A stretch of 64,000 nt of DNA from Phycisphaerae bacterium. Lineage in GTDB: Bacteria; Planctomycetota; Phycisphaerae; UBA1845; UTPLA1. Below are positions 28,192 to 38,545 of the stretch, piece after piece; the first letter of the stretch is position 1; each line of letters starts with the position of its first letter. Location of the stretch: contig DATEMU010000012.1 in the NCBI GenBank assembly GCA_035275405.1, positions 248,001 through 312,000 on the forward strand. The letters run 5' to 3'. The position numbers and the translations under genes were made by a program. The notes beneath the pieces are model-generated. The model ran no database searches. It was not told the DNA's origin and worked only from the letters and a program-made list of their open reading frames with translations.

Positions 28192-29649
28192 CTAGGGGCA
28201 TCCAAACTCGCCCATCAGCATGTCGACGAAGGCATCGGAGTCGGCGAGGTCAATGGCGTTGTAGGAGGCCGCGAGATCGGCACAGGGACTGGCGGAAACG
28301 TTTCCGAGCAGGATGTCGACCAGGGCGGCGATGTCCCGTCCGCTGACGGTGCCGTCGTTGTTGACATCGCCGGGACAGGTGCAGGAATTGGGGACGAGCG
28401 CGCTGAAGTTGAGCGACGTGGGTGTGCCGGGCTTGAACAGGCCGACCTTGACCAGGCCGGCAAAGGGTGGGCGATCGGCATCGAAGCGGAAGTTGTAGGT
28501 GGTTCCCCAGCGGAGGGCGTTGGCGTTGACGTTGGTCGTGTAGGAATCGGTGGCCCAGGTCAGGTTGCCGCCGCCCAAGACCGGCGTCCAATCGGCGGAG
28601 CTGTAGGGTTCGCCGCTGTGGTAGTCGACGTCGTGAAACCCGATGTTTGACAGGTTCGTTCCGACAGCAAAGGGAACATAAAAGAAGCCGGCCGAGCGGT
28701 CGGAATTCATGTTGTACAGGGCATATTCGTAGTGCCACGTCGTGTCGGGCACGATCTCGGTGACCTTGTATCCCAGAATGAATCGGCCTTCCGAGGGCAC
28801 GAACCCGTCAACCAGTGTGACTCCGCTCTCGACAGTCGGCCAAGCCTCGATCGCCGACTCTTGTTGGTGGGTGGTGCCGCCAAACGCGAGGTTCCAGCCG
28901 CCGCCGCTGAACGTGCCCACCGTGGTCGGCCGCCAGGAGGTGTTGTTGAACCTCTCATTATGGTTCTCGTCGGTCGGGATGTAATGGACGTCGCAGTAGT
29001 ACGACGCCCCGGGGTTCTGCGCCGGGTCGAGATCGGCGTTGTGGATCTGGAGGCGCTTATAGATGGCGTTGCCAGTCTGGCCCTCGGTCGGAAATGGATA
29101 GGAAAAAACGCCAGTATAAGCGTTCACGTCCGACTTGGGCCCGAGATCGGATTGATTACCGTTCAGACCTGAGCCATAGGTGTCCGTACAGCCGACGGTC
29201 AGCCAGTCGCAATTGCCGTCCGGGCTGCACGATCCACAATTCGGCCCGGACGCGTCCGCGGCGCAGAAGCCGTGCTTGAGCCAGCTCATCCCGATCTGCT
29301 CAAATCTGCCGGCGCCATCAACGACCTTGTATCGATACATGTTTTGACCGATTACCGGATGCTGATTGTTCGTATCCAACCAGATCGCTGAGGTCGTTCC
29401 GATGTTGCAGGAGACCGTAGTTACTGCGTAGCCAGTTATGTCGCCGACCGTGCCGTACTTCTGGAAGCCTGAGCCGATAGTCGAGACGATGACGTCGGGG
29501 CCGGTGCCGCGGGAAGGCGCGGTGAAAAGAAGTGTCGCTAAAAGCGAGAACGATATGGTTTTTGGAAGCCTTGATCCGGCCAATAAAGCCTTGAAACACG
29601 AATGACTTACAAGACACCCCGCGAATCCATCAGTTGAAAATCGCATCAT
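28192..29649 (-). CDS. secreted protein with C-terminal dockerin-like domain (paralogue of 29985 gene)
   Basis: The 485-residue protein has a long N-terminal signal region (hydrophobic ISFSLLATLLFTA). A ~370-residue body contains recurring phrases such as NQHPVIGQNMYRYKVVDG, QIGMSWLKHGFCA and LSNIGFHDVDYHSGEP. The tail is dockerin-like, with a Ca2+-loop DVNNDGTVSGRDIAALVD and a second half ending MLMGEFGCP. GGAAGGAG lies just upstream of the tandem ATGs at 29649/29646. Body and layout match the divergent gene at 29985. These look like extracellular surface or matrix proteins; dockerin-like ends imply assembly onto a partner. No enzyme motif is recognised. Confidence 0.75.
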   Translation of the reverse strand: MMRFSTDGFAGCLVSHSCFKALLAGSRLPKTISFSLLATLLFTAPSRGTGPDVIVSTIGSGFQKYGTVGDITGYAVTTVSCNIGTTSAIWLDTNNQHPVIGQNMYRYKVVDGAGRFEQIGMSWLKHGFCAADASGPNCGSCSPDGNCDWLTVGCTDTYGSGLNGNQSDLGPKSDVNAYTGVFSYPFPTEGQTGNAIYKRLQIHNADLDPAQNPGASYYCDVHYIPTDENHNERFNNTSWRPTTVGTFSGGGWNLAFGGTTHQQESAIEAWPTVESGVTLVDGFVPSEGRFILGYKVTEIVPDTTWHYEYALYNMNSDRSAGFFYVPFAVGTNLSNIGFHDVDYHSGEPYSSADWTPVLGGGNLTWATDSYTTNVNANALRWGTTYNFRFDADRPPFAGLVKVGLFKPGTPTSLNFSALVPNSCTCPGDVNNDGTVSGRDIAALVDILLGNVSASPCADLAASYNAIDLADSDAFVDMLMGEFGCP

Positions 29650-29984: not shown

Positions 29985-31463
29985 ATGAAAGCTGTCACTG
30001 GTCGCGCAATCGCGTTTATTTTGGTATCGATGTTCGTAACCCTTGGTGGGATCCAACACGCTCATGCGCAGCCGTGTGGTGTGGTGACCGGTCCCGACGT
30101 AACCGTTGGGGATTTGGCGACTCATCCGACGGGAGAGCCATTTCTTTCGAATTTTCCCAGCTCTGGCGGTCTTGAGGCCTTCTCGGTCGCGACTTATTCC
30201 TGCAATGTTGGCACCGTTTGGCTTAACTGGCTTCAATCGCCGAATGCAAACCACCCCGTCATCGGACAGAACTTCTTTCGCCTCCAGAGAGACCCGGCCG
30301 GCTACAACCGCTACGAGCAGCTCGGGCAAAGTTGGCTCAAGCATGGGTTCTTTGCCCTAAGCAACATTCTCTGCTGCACGAGTTGCAGCCCCACCGACGG
30401 GACTCACCTGGGTGTGGGCTGTTCGGACCCTTACAACTCCTCGCGAAACGCAAGCCAGACACAACTGGGACCCAAGTGGCAGGTCAACGCCACAACGGGC
30501 GTGCATCTCCATCCAGTGGCCAATCCGGCGCCGGCGACCGGCGGCGTTGTCCGGCTCTTGCAAATCGATATCAACGATTTGGAGGTCTCCGATGGGACGC
30601 AGCCCATTACCGACCAGCCTCGTTACTACGTTGAAGGCCAATATATTGCCGCGGACGACGCCGCAGCGGGCAATAAGAACAATAATGCCAGCTATCGGCC
30701 GATTGCCGTTACCGGCAGTGGATCGGCATGGACGTTCGCGAGGATCCCCGCCCTCCCGACCGTGCGCGAAAAGCCCGGGATTCGGGCTTGGAGGGCGTTC
30801 GATCCGACCGTCTCCGAAACCGACATCATCACGCCGGAAGACGGCGGCCTCAGCGCACTCGTGATTGTCGCGGGGCAGGCCACGGACCTCGGTGATGGCG
30901 TTTATCATTACGAAATTGCGATTCAAAACCTGAACTCAGAACGGTCCATCGGCTCTGTCAGCGTTCCGGTGTCACCTTATGCGACAGTGACCAACATCGG
31001 GTTCCACGACGTGGACTACCATGACGGGGACGGCAGCGGCAACATCACGACGGACGGCACGGACTGGCCCGCCGTGGTGTCCGGCGGAGCGGTCGCATGG
31101 AGCTATGTGGATGTCTCGCCGGCAAACGATAACGCCTTGCGCTGGGGCACGTTATACAACTACCGCTTCGATTGCGATCTGCCGCCGACGACCGCAAACA
31201 TCACCCTCGGACAATACCGAGTCGCCAATAGCCTTACCGCCAAGACGCAAATCCCCACCGCCGTGACCTGCCTTCGGGGCGATCTCAACGACGACTTATC
31301 GGTCGACGGCCTCGATGTTCAGCGTTTCGCCGATCGGCTCGTGAATGGCGGGGCGTCGCCGAAAGAGAAGTGTGCTGGGGACCTCGAGTTAACAGCGGAT
31401 TTCGGCATCGACGCCGACGACATCGAACCGTTTGCAGAATGCGTTCTAAGCAACGGTTGTTAA
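29985..31463 (+). CDS. secreted protein with C-terminal dockerin-like domain (paralogue of 28192 gene)
   Basis: The 492-residue protein has a signal peptide (IAFILVSMFVTLGGIQHAHA). The body is collinear with the divergent gene: NANHPVIGQNFFRLQRDPAG, EQLGQSWLKHGFFALS, PITDQPRYYVEGQYIAADD, VTNIGFHDVDYHDGDG and NALRWGTLYNYRFD. The C-terminus is dockerin-like (RGDLNDDLSVDGLDVQRFAD and FGIDADDIEPFAECV). An AAGGGA site precedes the ATG. Function unknown; probably extracellular. Confidence 0.75.
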   Translation: MKAVTGRAIAFILVSMFVTLGGIQHAHAQPCGVVTGPDVTVGDLATHPTGEPFLSNFPSSGGLEAFSVATYSCNVGTVWLNWLQSPNANHPVIGQNFFRLQRDPAGYNRYEQLGQSWLKHGFFALSNILCCTSCSPTDGTHLGVGCSDPYNSSRNASQTQLGPKWQVNATTGVHLHPVANPAPATGGVVRLLQIDINDLEVSDGTQPITDQPRYYVEGQYIAADDAAAGNKNNNASYRPIAVTGSGSAWTFARIPALPTVREKPGIRAWRAFDPTVSETDIITPEDGGLSALVIVAGQATDLGDGVYHYEIAIQNLNSERSIGSVSVPVSPYATVTNIGFHDVDYHDGDGSGNITTDGTDWPAVVSGGAVAWSYVDVSPANDNALRWGTLYNYRFDCDLPPTTANITLGQYRVANSLTAKTQIPTAVTCLRGDLNDDLSVDGLDVQRFADRLVNGGASPKEKCAGDLELTADFGIDADDIEPFAECVLSNGC

Positions 31464-32012: not shown

Positions 32013-35000
32013 ATGGGCATTGGCACATCACGGATTGGATGGGGTTTCGCGGCATGTCTGTGTTGCCTGACGGCGGCGGCGTTGACGCTTTCGAGCGTGG
32101 CCAACGCGACTCCGCCGGTCGGAAAGACGGTTCAGATCAACGTCGTCGGCGCTGATACTGGAACCAGTCGAACTCAGATTGCGTACAGCACGAACTTGCA
32201 ACCGATTACCAAACTCACGCTGCAAGACGGTGCCACCGCGGTTTCCGCGACCGGCAGCAAGCTTGTGCTCTACGTCGATAACGGCGCCGCCGGATCGGCG
32301 GTCCTGCATGTCGAAATGCCGGACTCCCCGCAAGTCAACGTGACAGTACACGTCGACGGCAAGATCCGCGCCGATGTCGCGCCGATAAATTCCAGCAAGC
32401 CCAGTGAACTCGGCTCCCCGATCTTGGGAACAGCGACGACGCCGCAGCCGGCGGTGGTCAAGCACGCTCCCCAGGCTCCCCCAAGTATCGCGGCCGTTGA
32501 CCCGTCAAGTGTTACAGATGGCGGTCGCGGTGGTCTGTCAACCAGCCTTGCTGAATCCGCGGGATTCATGGTGGATCGGCCTTATCGAACCGCCAAGCTG
32601 CGGAACCCGGCTGCCCCGCGCGGTTGCCCAGTGGTATGCCCGCCCGGCGCGACCGCCGAAAACGAACCCGATTGCGGCCTGCCGACCGATACGGTCAATG
32701 GCGGCTGCAACTCCACCCCGAACGTATTTAGTGCGATTAGTTGCGGCGAAACCGTGTGTGGGACCGGCGCCTTCGATGGCTCCTTTCGTGATACGGACTG
32801 GTACAAACTGGTCCTGACTGAAGACACAACTGTCACTTTTACGGGCGAAGCCGATTTCGATCTTCTCATCGGAATCGTCGATAACTTTGGAATAGACAGT
32901 TGTGCCGGCGTTACTTCATTCCTGTCCTTCGGTTTGGGGGGGGCCTGCACGCCCGCCTCTGCCAGCGCATGCCTCTCAGCAGGGACGTGGTATCTTTTCG
33001 TGGCGCCCGACTTTACTGTCCCAGTAGCGTGCGGCGCCGGGTACACAGCGACAGTCACCTGTAAAGCTGGCGAATGCGGGGGCGGCGGGGGAGTTTGCGG
33101 TCCGCCCAATCCTAACGACTGCAATGCGGCGAATTCCACGCCGGGCTGCAGCGACCAGGCGTGTTGCGAGGCGGTTTGCGCGATCGATCCTTTCTGCTGC
33201 GACGTCGCGTGGGACAGCATCTGTGCCAGCGAAGCTGCGGACCTTTGCGGCGGCGGCGGCGGCGTTTGCGGTCCGGATAATCCGAATGACTGTAGCGTGC
33301 CCAACTCGACGCCCGGGTGCAATGATCAAGCATGTTGTGAAGCGGTTTGCGCGATCGATCCTTTCTGCTGCGACGTCGCGTGGGACAGCATCTGCGCCGA
33401 CGAGGCGGCCTCCATCTGTAATCAGCCGCCTTGCGACGTAATCTGCGATCCCGGAAAGACGCCGGAAAACGAGCCCGATTGCGGCATTCCCACGGACACG
33501 GTCAACGGCGGCTGTAACTCCACGCCGAATGTCTTTTCACCAATCGTCTGCGGCCAGTCCTACTGTGGGACCGGGGCCTTCGACGGCAGCCTCCGCGATA
33601 CGGATTGGTACGAGGTCGTTTTGACCCAGGCGACGCAAGTTACCTGGACGGCCGAGGCGGAGTTCGATGTTGTCGTCGGTATTGTGGAAAACGGCGGCGG
33701 AACCTTGGATTGCAGTCAGGTGACGGCGTTCCGTGTGTTCGCCGTGGGCGGTCCCTGCCAGCCAACGAGCGTGTCGTCTTGCCTCCCTGCCGGAACCTGG
33801 TGGCTGTTTGTGGCGCCGGATTTCACGGCGATTGAAGCGTGTGGTGCGGAATACAATGCCACGCTGACGTGCGCCGATTGCCCGCCCGCTCCGGATAACG
33901 ATTTGTGCGAGGATGCCGAGGCGATCCTGTGCAACAGTTCGACCAACCTTGACAACACCTTGGCAACGACGGACCCGACCGACCCGCTCTATAGTTGCGC
34001 GTTCTTCGGTCCGCAGCAGGGCTTCGGCACGCTGTGGTACACCTTTGTCGCGACCGACACCTCGGCCTACGTGCAGACCTGCAACAGCGGTTCCACGGAC
34101 ACCTTGCTCGCCGTCTATAGCGGCACCTGCGGAAGCCTCGTGGAAATCGCATGCAACGATGACGGGCCGTGCGGCGGCACCGGTCTCCTCTCCAAGCTGT
34201 GCGCTCAAGGGCTAACAGTGGGCGACACGTATTACATCCAAGTGTCGTCATTCTCGGCGGCCGATCAGGGACAGATCACCCTGGAATTGACGTGCCCATG
34301 CCCGCCCGGACCTCCGGGGGACAACTGCCAGGATGCGGTTCCTCTCGCTATTCCGGCGGATGTTTCAGGCTCCACGACGAGTTCGAATCCCGATGTACCT
34401 CCGGCGTTCACCTGTGGCGGCTTCTCCGTGTCCGCGCCCGGCAACTGGTACACCGTGGTTGGCAACGGCAATGAGCTGACTGCGTCGCTGTGCAACCCGG
34501 GAACGAATTATGACACGAAGCTCCACGTCTATTGCGGCACCTGCACACAATTGTTCTGCGTGGCTGGCGATGACGACTTCTGCGGCTTCCCGCCGGGTTA
34601 CTCGCAGGCCTCTTGGTGTTCCGCGCCTGGTACGACCTATTACATTCTGGTCAGCGGTTTCGGTTCGGCCACGGGCGACTATCAGTTGACCGTGACCAGC
34701 GGCGCCGCGTGCAGCGATCCGCCGTTGTGCGAGCCTTGCGCCGTTAGCTGCGACCCGGGCAAGACCGATGAGAACGAGCCCGATTGCGGTCTGCCGACCG
34801 ACACGGTCAATGGCGGCTGCAACTCCGTTCCTCCGGTCTTTTCGCCCATCACTTGCGGCGAGGCGTATTGCGGAACCGGCGCCTTCGATGGCAGCACCCG
34901 CGATACGGATTGGTATCAAGTCGTCCTGACTCAGAACACGCAAGTGACGTGGTCCGTCGAGGCCGAGTTCGATGTCCTGGTGGGCATCGTCGACAACCAG

Positions 35001-37847
35001 GGCGGAGCGCTGGACTGCAGCCAGGTTTCGGCATTCCTGGTCTTCGCCGTCGGCACTCCTTGCCAGACGACAAGCGTGTCGACTTGTCTCTCCGCCGGGA
35101 CTTGGTGGCTCTTTGTGGCGCCCGATTTCCTCGCGCCAGTGCCGTGCGGCGCGGAATACAACGCTGTATTAACCTGCGCCGACTGCCCGCCGGGTCCGGA
35201 CAACGATTTGTGTGTGGACGCCGAGGCGATCCTGTGCAACAGCACGACCAATATGGATAACACACTGGCAACGACCGACGCGACGGATCCGCTCTATAGC
35301 TGTGCGTTCTTCGGACCGCAACAAGGCTTCGGTACGTTGTGGTACACGTTCGTCGCGACGAACAGTTCCGCAAAGCTCAGCACCTGCGGCAGTGCTTCGA
35401 CCGACACGCTGCTGGCCGTCTATAGCGGCACCTGCCCGAGTCTGGTCGAGATCGCCTGCAACGACGACCTGCCTTGTGGCCCGACGACGTTCCTGTCGGA
35501 GCTTTGTGTGACCAATCTGACGGTCGGCGACACCTATTACATCCAGGTCTCGTCGTTCTCCAACGCGGACCGCGGCCCGATCGAACTCGTGCTGGAATGC
35601 CCTTGCCCCGGCTTTGAGCCGACGGGGGCCTGCTGCGTGGACGACGTCTGCTCCATCACCACGCAGTCGCAGTGCGCGGGTGAGTATCTGGGCGATGGCA
35701 CGACTTGCGATTCGCCCGGAGGTACGCCGACGGTATATCTATCCAACCCGAATGCGGCGATCCCGGATAACAATCCGGCGGGCATCAGCAACACGATTAA
35801 CGTGCCCGATTCAATGACAATCGCTGACCTTAACGTCGACCTCGTCATACCCCACACCTGGGTCGGCGACCTGTGCGTCACGCTGACGCACGGTGCGACG
35901 ACCGTGGACCTGATCCAGCGACCGGGTTCGGCGGCGCCCGCCGGCTGCTACTCGGGCAGCCCGTTCGGTTGCGACCAGGACAACTACAACATCATTCTGG
36001 ACGACCAGGGATCGGGCGGTCCGATTGAGAGCCTCTGCTCGCCCAGCATGGTCTCCCCGCCGAACTACGTACCGAACAATCCGCTCGCCGCGTTCAACGG
36101 CGCCGACGCTGCCGGCCCGTGGATCATCACGGTGGTGGATAATGCGGGCGGAGACTTGGGTACGCTGGTCCAGTGGTCGTTGCACTTCTCAGAGCCCGGC
36201 CCGTCGCCTTGCAACATCGAGCCATGCGACGAATGCCCTGCCGGTACGATCCCAATCGTTGACGAAAACGGGGACAACTCCGGATGGTGCGTCAGCGCGT
36301 CAGATCCGGCCAATGTTTCCATCGTGGTCGAAGATGTGGATCGCACCGCGGGTACCGCAACCCTCCACATCAATAAGAACTTTGCCAATCCGCCGGGCTT
36401 CGGCGGGCTCATCCCCTGCATCCTGCTCGATTTCGTGCAGGTCTGCCCCGATGTGCGAACCGTGGACACGTTCCTGATCAACGGTGAAACGATCACCAAC
36501 AATACGGGAGTCGAGTGGCTCGACTTCCATTGGATCCTCTTCGACGGACCGGAAGCCTGGTTCGATGTCGCGGCTTCCGATGATTTCGATGTCTCGCCCT
36601 TCCTGAGCAAGCTGTTCAGCCGGTTCATTGATTCTCCGGCGAACAACCAGGCCAAGAAGCTGGATGCTTACAACGGCTCGGTGCCGGCCGGCGGGACGTT
36701 CAGTCCGTCGGGCGGGACGGTTGGCGGCGGCAGTCCGATTGACGTCGTGTCCAATCCCAATGCGGCGATTCCCGACAACAATCCGGCAGGCGTCAGCGAT
36801 GTCATTAACGTAGGTGATTCGGTGACCATGGCCGATGTGAATGTCGATCTCGTCGTGAACCACACCTGGGTGGGTGACTTGGTCGTCACGCTGACGCATG
36901 GCGCCGACTCCGTGGTCCTCGTGGACCGACCGGGCGTCCCGGCGAGCACCTTCGGCTGCGACCAGAACAACTACAACATCATTCTGGATGACCAGGGCGC
37001 GGGCGGGGCCATTGAAACCCTCTGTGCCGTATCCATGGTCTCTCCGCCGAATTACGTGCCGAATAATCCGCTCGCCGCCTTCAACGGCGACGATTCAGCG
37101 GGGGCATGGACCATTACGGTCTCCGATAACGCGGGACAAGACACGGGCACGCTAGTCCAGTGGTCGCTGCACATTACGCCGCAGTCGACTTCCAGCGGCG
37201 AACCGCTCACCATCGGCGTCGATCTCAGCGGGCCGCAAGTCTCCTTCACCTTGAAGGAGTGCCCGACGACGACCGGCGAGGTTGAGGCGGGCGCCTGCTG
37301 CATCGGCCTGGATTGCTCAATCCTGACGCCGGCCGACTGTGCCGCGTCACTAGGCTTGTACAAGGGCGACGGTTCGGCCTGTACGCCGGGCATCTGCCTG
37401 CCGGCCAACGACGAGTGCGGTAATTGCATCTCGGTGGCGACGGGTACGACGTACAACGGAACAACGCTTGGGGCTACGGGGACGGATGTCTCGTCCTGTG
37501 CCTTCAATGACACCATCGACGTCTGGCACTGCTGGACGGCGACGTGTACCGGTCAGGCGACCTTCAGCCTGTGCGGTAGCGGATTCGATACGACGCTGGC
37601 GGTGTATGGCGCCTGCGGAGGCGCGGAGCTCGGTTGCAATGACGACGCTGCGGCATGCAGCCCGGGGTCCCAGCTTTCCTTGGCCGTCACCACTGGCCAG
37701 GTCTACTTCATTCGCGTCTCCGGATTCAATGGAGATGCCGGCAACTATTCACTTAACGTCACATGCAGCCCAGCGGGGCCAAACCGCCGTCCGAAGTTGG
37801 GCTCGGTTACCGACTCCGCGACGGGCTTAACTGGTCAGGGAAATTAA
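32013..37847 (+). CDS. giant Cys-rich modular surface protein with P-domains and PPC-like modules
   Basis: The 1944-residue secreted protein begins with a signal peptide (cleavage near residue 32); AGGGAGAGGG precedes the ATG. Approximate modules, in order: NEPDCG module 1 (210-350); two CCEAVCAIDPFCCDVAWDSIC modules (360-413, 418-470); NEPDCG 2 (476-624); PPC-like 1 (623-766); a further PPC-like unit (767-902); NEPDCG 3 (913-1056); PPC-like 2 (1058-1200); GACC 1 (1204-1236); proprotein-convertase P domain 1 (1240-1395); a beta domain (1400-1560) interrupted by P domain 2 (1575-1725) and resuming 1728-1752; GACC 2 (1758-1796); PPC-like 3 (1797-1919). No protease, PEP-CTERM or anchor motif is seen. 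Probably an extracellular adhesion or matrix protein. Confidence 0.85.
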   Translation: MGIGTSRIGWGFAACLCCLTAAALTLSSVANATPPVGKTVQINVVGADTGTSRTQIAYSTNLQPITKLTLQDGATAVSATGSKLVLYVDNGAAGSAVLHVEMPDSPQVNVTVHVDGKIRADVAPINSSKPSELGSPILGTATTPQPAVVKHAPQAPPSIAAVDPSSVTDGGRGGLSTSLAESAGFMVDRPYRTAKLRNPAAPRGCPVVCPPGATAENEPDCGLPTDTVNGGCNSTPNVFSAISCGETVCGTGAFDGSFRDTDWYKLVLTEDTTVTFTGEADFDLLIGIVDNFGIDSCAGVTSFLSFGLGGACTPASASACLSAGTWYLFVAPDFTVPVACGAGYTATVTCKAGECGGGGGVCGPPNPNDCNAANSTPGCSDQACCEAVCAIDPFCCDVAWDSICASEAADLCGGGGGVCGPDNPNDCSVPNSTPGCNDQACCEAVCAIDPFCCDVAWDSICADEAASICNQPPCDVICDPGKTPENEPDCGIPTDTVNGGCNSTPNVFSPIVCGQSYCGTGAFDGSLRDTDWYEVVLTQATQVTWTAEAEFDVVVGIVENGGGTLDCSQVTAFRVFAVGGPCQPTSVSSCLPAGTWWLFVAPDFTAIEACGAEYNATLTCADCPPAPDNDLCEDAEAILCNSSTNLDNTLATTDPTDPLYSCAFFGPQQGFGTLWYTFVATDTSAYVQTCNSGSTDTLLAVYSGTCGSLVEIACNDDGPCGGTGLLSKLCAQGLTVGDTYYIQVSSFSAADQGQITLELTCPCPPGPPGDNCQDAVPLAIPADVSGSTTSSNPDVPPAFTCGGFSVSAPGNWYTVVGNGNELTASLCNPGTNYDTKLHVYCGTCTQLFCVAGDDDFCGFPPGYSQASWCSAPGTTYYILVSGFGSATGDYQLTVTSGAACSDPPLCEPCAVSCDPGKTDENEPDCGLPTDTVNGGCNSVPPVFSPITCGEAYCGTGAFDGSTRDTDWYQVVLTQNTQVTWSVEAEFDVLVGIVDNQGGALDCSQVSAFLVFAVGTPCQTTSVSTCLSAGTWWLFVAPDFLAPVPCGAEYNAVLTCADCPPGPDNDLCVDAEAILCNSTTNMDNTLATTDATDPLYSCAFFGPQQGFGTLWYTFVATNSSAKLSTCGSASTDTLLAVYSGTCPSLVEIACNDDLPCGPTTFLSELCVTNLTVGDTYYIQVSSFSNADRGPIELVLECPCPGFEPTGACCVDDVCSITTQSQCAGEYLGDGTTCDSPGGTPTVYLSNPNAAIPDNNPAGISNTINVPDSMTIADLNVDLVIPHTWVGDLCVTLTHGATTVDLIQRPGSAAPAGCYSGSPFGCDQDNYNIILDDQGSGGPIESLCSPSMVSPPNYVPNNPLAAFNGADAAGPWIITVVDNAGGDLGTLVQWSLHFSEPGPSPCNIEPCDECPAGTIPIVDENGDNSGWCVSASDPANVSIVVEDVDRTAGTATLHINKNFANPPGFGGLIPCILLDFVQVCPDVRTVDTFLINGETITNNTGVEWLDFHWILFDGPEAWFDVAASDDFDVSPFLSKLFSRFIDSPANNQAKKLDAYNGSVPAGGTFSPSGGTVGGGSPIDVVSNPNAAIPDNNPAGVSDVINVGDSVTMADVNVDLVVNHTWVGDLVVTLTHGADSVVLVDRPGVPASTFGCDQNNYNIILDDQGAGGAIETLCAVSMVSPPNYVPNNPLAAFNGDDSAGAWTITVSDNAGQDTGTLVQWSLHITPQSTSSGEPLTIGVDLSGPQVSFTLKECPTTTGEVEAGACCIGLDCSILTPADCAASLGLYKGDGSACTPGICLPANDECGNCISVATGTTYNGTTLGATGTDVSSCAFNDTIDVWHCWTATCTGQATFSLCGSGFDTTLAVYGACGGAELGCNDDAAACSPGSQLSLAVTTGQVYFIRVSGFNGDAGNYSLNVTCSPAGPNRRPKLGSVTDSATGLTGQGN

Positions 37848-37900: not shown

Positions 37901-38545
37901 ATGAAAAGCAGTAACTTATCGACGCCCATCCTGGCGCTTGGCCTCTTGGGCATTCTGGTGGGTGCGAGTTCCGCCTACGGTGACATCACCATCCCCCTGG
38001 GTGGAGGATGGGAAGCCCAGGTCCCGAATCTTTCGCAAGTCAGTATCAGCGTGGATTCGGTCACCTCCGAGTTCGTCGCGATCGAAATATCGAAGGACTT
38101 CACCGAACCCTACGACGGCATCGGCTTTCCCGGCCACAGCATCCTGTTCACACAGGTCGCTGCGGATGCGGTGACGTCGCCGCGTATCATCATCCTCGAT
38201 GAGTCGGTGACGAATCTGACGGGCTCGGACTGGACCGACTATCACATGGAGATCGGCTCCGGGGGCGAGGTCGTGTTTGACATCGCCGCTTCCCTGGGCT
38301 TCAGCATGGCTCCGTTTACCAATCAACTCCTCACCCTGACGACCTTGGACGCTGACGGAGGGGTGGTGTTCAACAACAGCTCGTTTTTCCCCGGCGCCGG
38401 TCCGGGCGAGTTGGTCATGTTTGCGGACTTGTCTGGCGAAGAGGCCGTCTCGTTCACGCTAACTGAGTTTCCGACGCCGGAGCCTGCGACAGTGGCGTTG
38501 CTGGTCCTCGGCCTCGGCTGCTTGAAGCGGCGTCGGTCGAGATAA
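37901..38545 (+). CDS. PEP-CTERM sorting domain protein
   Basis: The 214-residue protein has a signal peptide (ILALGLLGILVGASSAYG), a beta-sandwich-like body and the C-terminal sorting signal TPEPATVALLVLGLGCLKRRRS: a PEP motif, one helix and basic residues. PEP-CTERM proteins are recognised by exosortase and released to the surface or matrix; no exosortase gene is in the window. The body matches the split domain of the preceding giant protein (VSISVDSVTSEFVAIEISKDF against VSIVVEDVDRTAGTATLHINKNF; both have WxDxH or WLDFH). A GGGGAGAG site precedes the ATG, 53 bases after that gene. Confidence 0.88.
   Translation: MKSSNLSTPILALGLLGILVGASSAYGDITIPLGGGWEAQVPNLSQVSISVDSVTSEFVAIEISKDFTEPYDGIGFPGHSILFTQVAADAVTSPRIIILDESVTNLTGSDWTDYHMEIGSGGEVVFDIAASLGFSMAPFTNQLLTLTTLDADGGVVFNNSSFFPGAGPGELVMFADLSGEEAVSFTLTEFPTPEPATVALLVLGLGCLKRRRSR

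Follow-up and report, generated by a model that had tools for sequence, protein, structure and literature searches.

How does a P domain come to lie inside another domain which, in the very next gene, stands alone and whole? The question is raised by a 64,000-nucleotide stretch of a Phycisphaerae genome (the whole stretch is referred to here as the window), whose relatives, where named, are assemblies of Phycisphaerae and of other Planctomycetota. The gene concerned (positions 32013-37847, forward strand) is one open reading frame that encodes 1944 residues without a break and specifies a giant, putatively secreted protein, in which position 36210 corresponds to residue 1400. Its relevant part, all on the forward strand, comprises a first P domain (P1; residues 1238-1394, positions 35724-36194) and, directly downstream, the first part of a beta domain, hereafter the carrier (residues 1400-1573, 36210-36731, with the homology core starting at about 1411). 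These are followed by a second P domain (P2; residues 1574-1722, 36732-37178), the linker PQSTSSGE (residues 1723-1730, 37179-37202), which is missing from the orthologues, and the remaining part of the carrier (residues 1731-1752, 37203-37268), which contributes its last two strands. The arrangement is very probably a nested insertion, in which a discontinuous carrier holds a P-domain insert derived from P1 and kept under selection.

The P domain is known from proprotein convertases (PF01483; furin, Kex2 and the Aeromonas sobria serine protease), which the domains in the giant protein resemble in their above-cut-off Pfam score and matching fold. Two P_proprotein domains are recognized in the protein (60.9 bits against a cut-off of 21, best stretch 1607-1721), and the sequence P0003, which contains P2 only, scores 39.9 bits against the same cut-off of 21. 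Unlike the convertases, the giant protein lacks an S8 domain (Peptidase_S8 gave no match in the Pfam search with a threshold of E ≤ 1), and its P domains are free-standing modules. Galactose-binding-like modules are present besides the P domains, the best of them C-terminal (Pfam). The putative signal peptide, recognized by eye at the N-terminus, suggests that the protein is exported, either onto the cell surface or into the extracellular matrix. Repetition is also seen elsewhere in the protein: residues 473-764 and 908-1199 form an internal duplication of about 290 residues with roughly 80% identity, residues 205-350 are a further partial copy of this unit, and two cysteine-rich repeats (CCEAVCAIDPFCCDVAWDSIC; residues 364-400 and 421-457) are 86% identical.

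The next gene (37901-38545, forward strand) encodes a PEP-CTERM protein of 214 residues, consisting of a stand-alone, uninterrupted copy of the carrier (about residues 29-193) and a PEP-CTERM tail (residues 191-214). The protein is matched by TIGR02595 (22.7 bits, cut-off 16) and falls just under the cut-off of Pfam PF07589 (20.0 vs 20.7), while none of the curated PEP-CTERM families of NCBIfam recognizes its body above cut-off (NF038129, 20.8 bits vs 65). Its AlphaFold2 (AF2) model has a mean pLDDT of 83, with the last two strands at residues 171-175 and 184-192 and a predicted helix at residues 195-213. The likeness of this locus to known PEP-CTERM/exosortase proteins (TIGR02595; Haft et al. 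2006, PMC1569441) lies in the tail of this neighbor and in an exosortase encoded in the same genome (PF09721, 188 bits; G000:C13). The giant protein differs from them in having the body domain and no tail: Pfam and TIGR02595 searches found no PEP-CTERM tail in it, and its C-terminus reads ...NRRPKLGSVTDSATGLTGQGN. It has been proposed that PEP-CTERM proteins reach the biofilm matrix by being exported together with exopolysaccharide (PMC1569441), a proposal that, like the presence of the exosortase, fits the suggested extracellular role without testing it.

A sequence-only reading of the window had placed in the giant protein a beta domain at residues ~1400-1560 and 1728-1752 that matches the PEP-CTERM protein over its whole body, and this match is borne out with refined limits, the homologous stretches being about 1411-1573 and about 1725-1752. 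Carrier part 1 aligns to the PEP-CTERM protein with a score of 167, against a best of 62 in 2000 shuffles, and part 2 (LTIGVDLSGPQ-VSFTLKECPT against LVMFADLSGEEAVSFTLTEFPT) with a score of 49, against a best of 40; the two parts match consecutive stretches of the neighbor. A domain HMM built from 19 rows, one of them being the window's copy with P2 removed, gives two matches on the window protein, at model positions 5-177 (E 1e-74) and 175-213 (E 3e-6), with the Pfam P domain at 1574-1722 falling between them, as the same reading had it. When the window's own genome is searched in translation with the PEP-CTERM body, the giant gene is the best other match (E 8e-13). In addition, a giant-gene carrier profile that left out the window's copy aligns to the PEP-CTERM protein profile along 170 columns, the C-terminal strands among them (hhalign, E 1.7e-49). 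These comparisons show that the giant protein contains a discontinuous beta domain, with a P domain nested in the loop before the last two strands.

To follow this arrangement in three dimensions, residues 1400-1752 were modeled with AF2 from a 14-row alignment (mean pLDDT 68, pTM 0.53); at this pTM, the relative placement of the carrier and P2 lobes in the model carries no weight. The first part of the carrier has a pLDDT mostly of 78-93 up to model residue 120 (residue 1519) and of 45-70 over model residues 121-180, and the strands of the second part, at model residues 333-337 and 345-352, reach 83-90. The junctions, at model residues 168-176 and 325-330 (the latter corresponding to residues 1724-1729), have a pLDDT below 50; the P2 core lies at 60-77, with a low-confidence stretch at model residues 241-289 that drops under 50 in a loop region. 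The strand order of the carrier parts is that of the PEP-CTERM model, the strands after the insert matching its last two. The prediction yields no independent fold for either half, the C-terminal strands being modeled as confidently as the N-terminal part, and the carrier in the giant protein probably folds as in its uninterrupted relatives. The P domains of Kex2 and furin match P2, over model residues 169-327 only, with a VIA-align Z of 11.9 and an rmsd of 2.6 Å for 121 residues, and Foldseek relates P2 to Kex2 with a probability of 1.00, the P2 part of the model itself being of moderate confidence.

The register of the C-terminal strands deserves separate comment. By default, alignments that mixed carriers with P domains put these strands in the wrong place, and alignment A6, which combines both, was picked by known anchor motifs from 1200 trial row sets. 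A6 is therefore not independent evidence of register, and the AF2 model derived from it leans on that register; the independent evidence comes from the carrier-only alignment A2 and the split HMM matches. The carrier was also compared with solved structures, and the resemblances (best sequence E 0.14, best VIA Z 5.7) lie in the chance range of beta sandwiches, as does the best Foldseek match, to an auxin-binding protein and cupins (E 2e-3), and no structure in the PDB is a clear match for the carrier.

Related genomes contain the uninterrupted state. In G001, G012, G015, G007, G023 and G043 (same family and order), giant genes encode a P domain directly followed by the carrier, with a PEP-CTERM gene just downstream, and in G001, G012, G015, G023 and G043 this P domain occupies the position of P1. 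The two parts of the carrier are contiguous in these proteins, for example at residues 1316-1483 and then 1486-1511 in G001, and at 1474-1641 and then 1644-1669 in G015. The whole insertion falls in one loop, between the motif F-x-P-G-G-x and the strand L-x-I-x-V-D-L. In the loop alignment, in which the window protein stands beside seven carriers and whose rows come from six giant proteins and two truncated G007 ORFs, no aligned carrier other than that of the window is broken at this loop. Likewise, the HMM over all fetched loci gives one continuous match for each copy that reaches the loop, except for the two on the window protein. When 397 genomes of the class were searched with a profile, the carrier turned up in 38, and the window's giant copy alone ends at the loop, at profile position 173, its remaining part displaced by an insert; most others reach 193-199, and a few weaker or truncated matches, inspected in part, also end early. 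In the G007 giant gene (L057:5723-14188, forward strand), tandem P domains (residues 1170-1316 and 1384-1526) precede an uninterrupted carrier, a separate duplication.

Because orthologous giant genes have no insert and carry a P domain upstream only, the insert represents a derived gain. Carriers of giant genes from both families group into a single clade (support 100/99) in a tree of 54 domains, apart from the adjacent PEP-CTERM proteins; since this clade spans two families, the duplication behind the adjacent pair predates the family split. On these phylogenetic and alignment grounds, the pairing of carrier and PEP-CTERM gene is much older than the insertion, which is seen only in the window's gene. 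The initial description, of a domain duplication and nested insertion between adjacent genes, thus holds for both events, each of which is backed by sequence, orthologues and structure prediction, but not as one process: the sharing of the beta domain is an old paralogy, the insertion was found only in the window's gene, and the two are separate events.

P2 is closely related to P1. At the protein level the two agree in 112 of 149 aligned residues (75% identity), and the DNA is 79.5% identical over 420 aligned bases; an earlier estimate by eye of about 75% similarity had recognized the close likeness and understated it, since 75% is the identity. A tree of 39 P domains places P1 beside P2 as its sister (support 98/87) and gives P2 a longer branch than P1 (0.37 vs 0.19). 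Between the two copies, dS is 1.06 and dN 0.178, whereas dN between P1 and the P domains of G001, G015 and G012 is 0.25-0.32. The resulting dN/dS of about 0.17 indicates that P2 is under purifying selection. Among P domains whose alignment covers both sites, the two cysteines of a pair (GDLC...CYSG in P1) are either both present or both absent, and P2 has neither, which is what the loss of one putative disulfide in a still-constrained fold would give. The high dS (about 1) means that the insertion event is not recent in absolute terms, and for the same reason microhomology at the insertion junctions is not interpretable.

The proposed course of events starts with the copying of P1 into the loop of the adjacent carrier, where the copy would have been placed on new Gly/Ser/Thr-rich linkers and then retained by purifying selection. 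P2 would form an additional folded lobe, seated on a surface loop of the carrier, and may add a second P-domain binding or stabilizing module, leaving the chain of main domains no longer than before. Selection on P2 bears on the strongest competing account, namely that the insertion makes no functional difference: a repeat-rich surface protein would tolerate the duplication in a surface loop that is permissive. We give this account somewhat less than an even chance: Schaeffer et al. (2026, PMC13114784) report domain insertions in 20% of multidomain proteins, the giant protein has duplicated about 290 residues internally, and its G007 relative has tandem P domains before the carrier, but P2 has been kept under purifying selection with its fold signature intact. 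That a single step, the copying of P1 next door and its nesting there, brought a functional gain in the form of a second ligand-binding or calcium-stabilized lobe is a tentative and rather doubtful suggestion. If true, comparing the gene pairs between the window's genus and genus g2 would amount to a natural before-and-after experiment on the birth of a nested domain.

The source of the insert can be considered separately. P2 might have a parent other than P1, either a P domain located elsewhere in the genome or one acquired by transfer; the event is old (dS about 1), and the AU test does not force P1 and P2 together, as it does not reject a tree that joins P1 to the genus-g2 P domains without P2 (p 0.205). 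By this result, a duplication before the split from genus g2, followed by loss there, is formally allowed. Against a foreign source, the identity of P2 to P1 exceeds that of the next closest P domains among the matches listed (55-62%) and that of the best other P domain of the same genome outside the giant gene, again among the matches listed (30-45%), in agreement with the 98/87 grouping, and we regard such a source as improbable. The derivation of P2 from the upstream P1 is well supported by these comparisons; the insertion is most probably a derived, lineage-specific copy of P1, its lineage-specific timing being well supported but not proven.

A different objection concerns the integrity of the carrier itself, which could be truncated, with an ordinary tandem P domain and then an unrelated pair of strands behind it, so that the C-terminal stretch would not be carrier at all. 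Part 2 indeed has only about 22 residues, and the score of 49 for its pairwise alignment is modest beside the shuffle maximum of 40, yet its HMM match covers exactly the stretch of the model that is missing, from where the first match ends. The corresponding stretch in G001 and G012, 65-69% identical, directly follows part 1, and AF2 models part 2 as strands with the high pLDDT given above. A truncation of this kind is accordingly very unlikely. Least credible of all is an assembly chimera, in which repeated P-domain sequence was misjoined in a draft genome of 19 contigs and a repeat-rich gene, as P1 and P2 are too different in DNA for easy collapse or misjoining, both junctions are in frame with new linkers, dN/dS between the copies is low and the cysteine pair was lost as a pair.

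The nested insertion from P1 can thus be set beside known cases. Nested (A1-B-A2) insertions, as described by Schaeffer et al. (PMC13114784), usually have inserts smaller than their hosts (median 115 vs 199 residues), and P2, with about 149 residues in a host of about 165-185, is similar in this respect. In the carrier, both flanks belong to one domain that is continuous in relatives, the defining feature of the A1-B-A2 pattern, and the case differs from others in that the likely parent of the insert lies in the same polypeptide, directly upstream of the host. Nesting as such is ordinary, and the giant protein is a clean new example of it; a limited text search turned up no account of a PEP-CTERM-type beta domain with a P domain inserted in it. 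It is rare to see the uninterrupted ancestor, the likely donor and the nested outcome at one time, and here a donor candidate in the same protein, uninterrupted host orthologues and a stand-alone host paralogue in the next gene are all in view. With these states side by side, it is possible to test directly whether a beta domain tolerates an inserted neighbor and what the insert adds.

Further variation in carrier genes was observed among the relatives. A PEP-CTERM ORF of 529 residues (L100; G093:C78, about 90944-92194) contains the carrier domain twice in tandem, and a PEP-CTERM carrier copy with one in-frame TGA (L044; G044:C12:730606-731241) lies beside an intact copy, possibly reflecting gene decay. 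Upstream of the giant gene in the window, the protein encoded at 28192-29649 (reverse strand) weakly matches dockerin type I (20.2 bits vs a cut-off of 22.9). It forms a divergent, secreted-looking pair with that encoded at 29985-31463 (forward strand), the two being alike by eye (NIGFHDVDYH, ALRWGT-YN-RFD).
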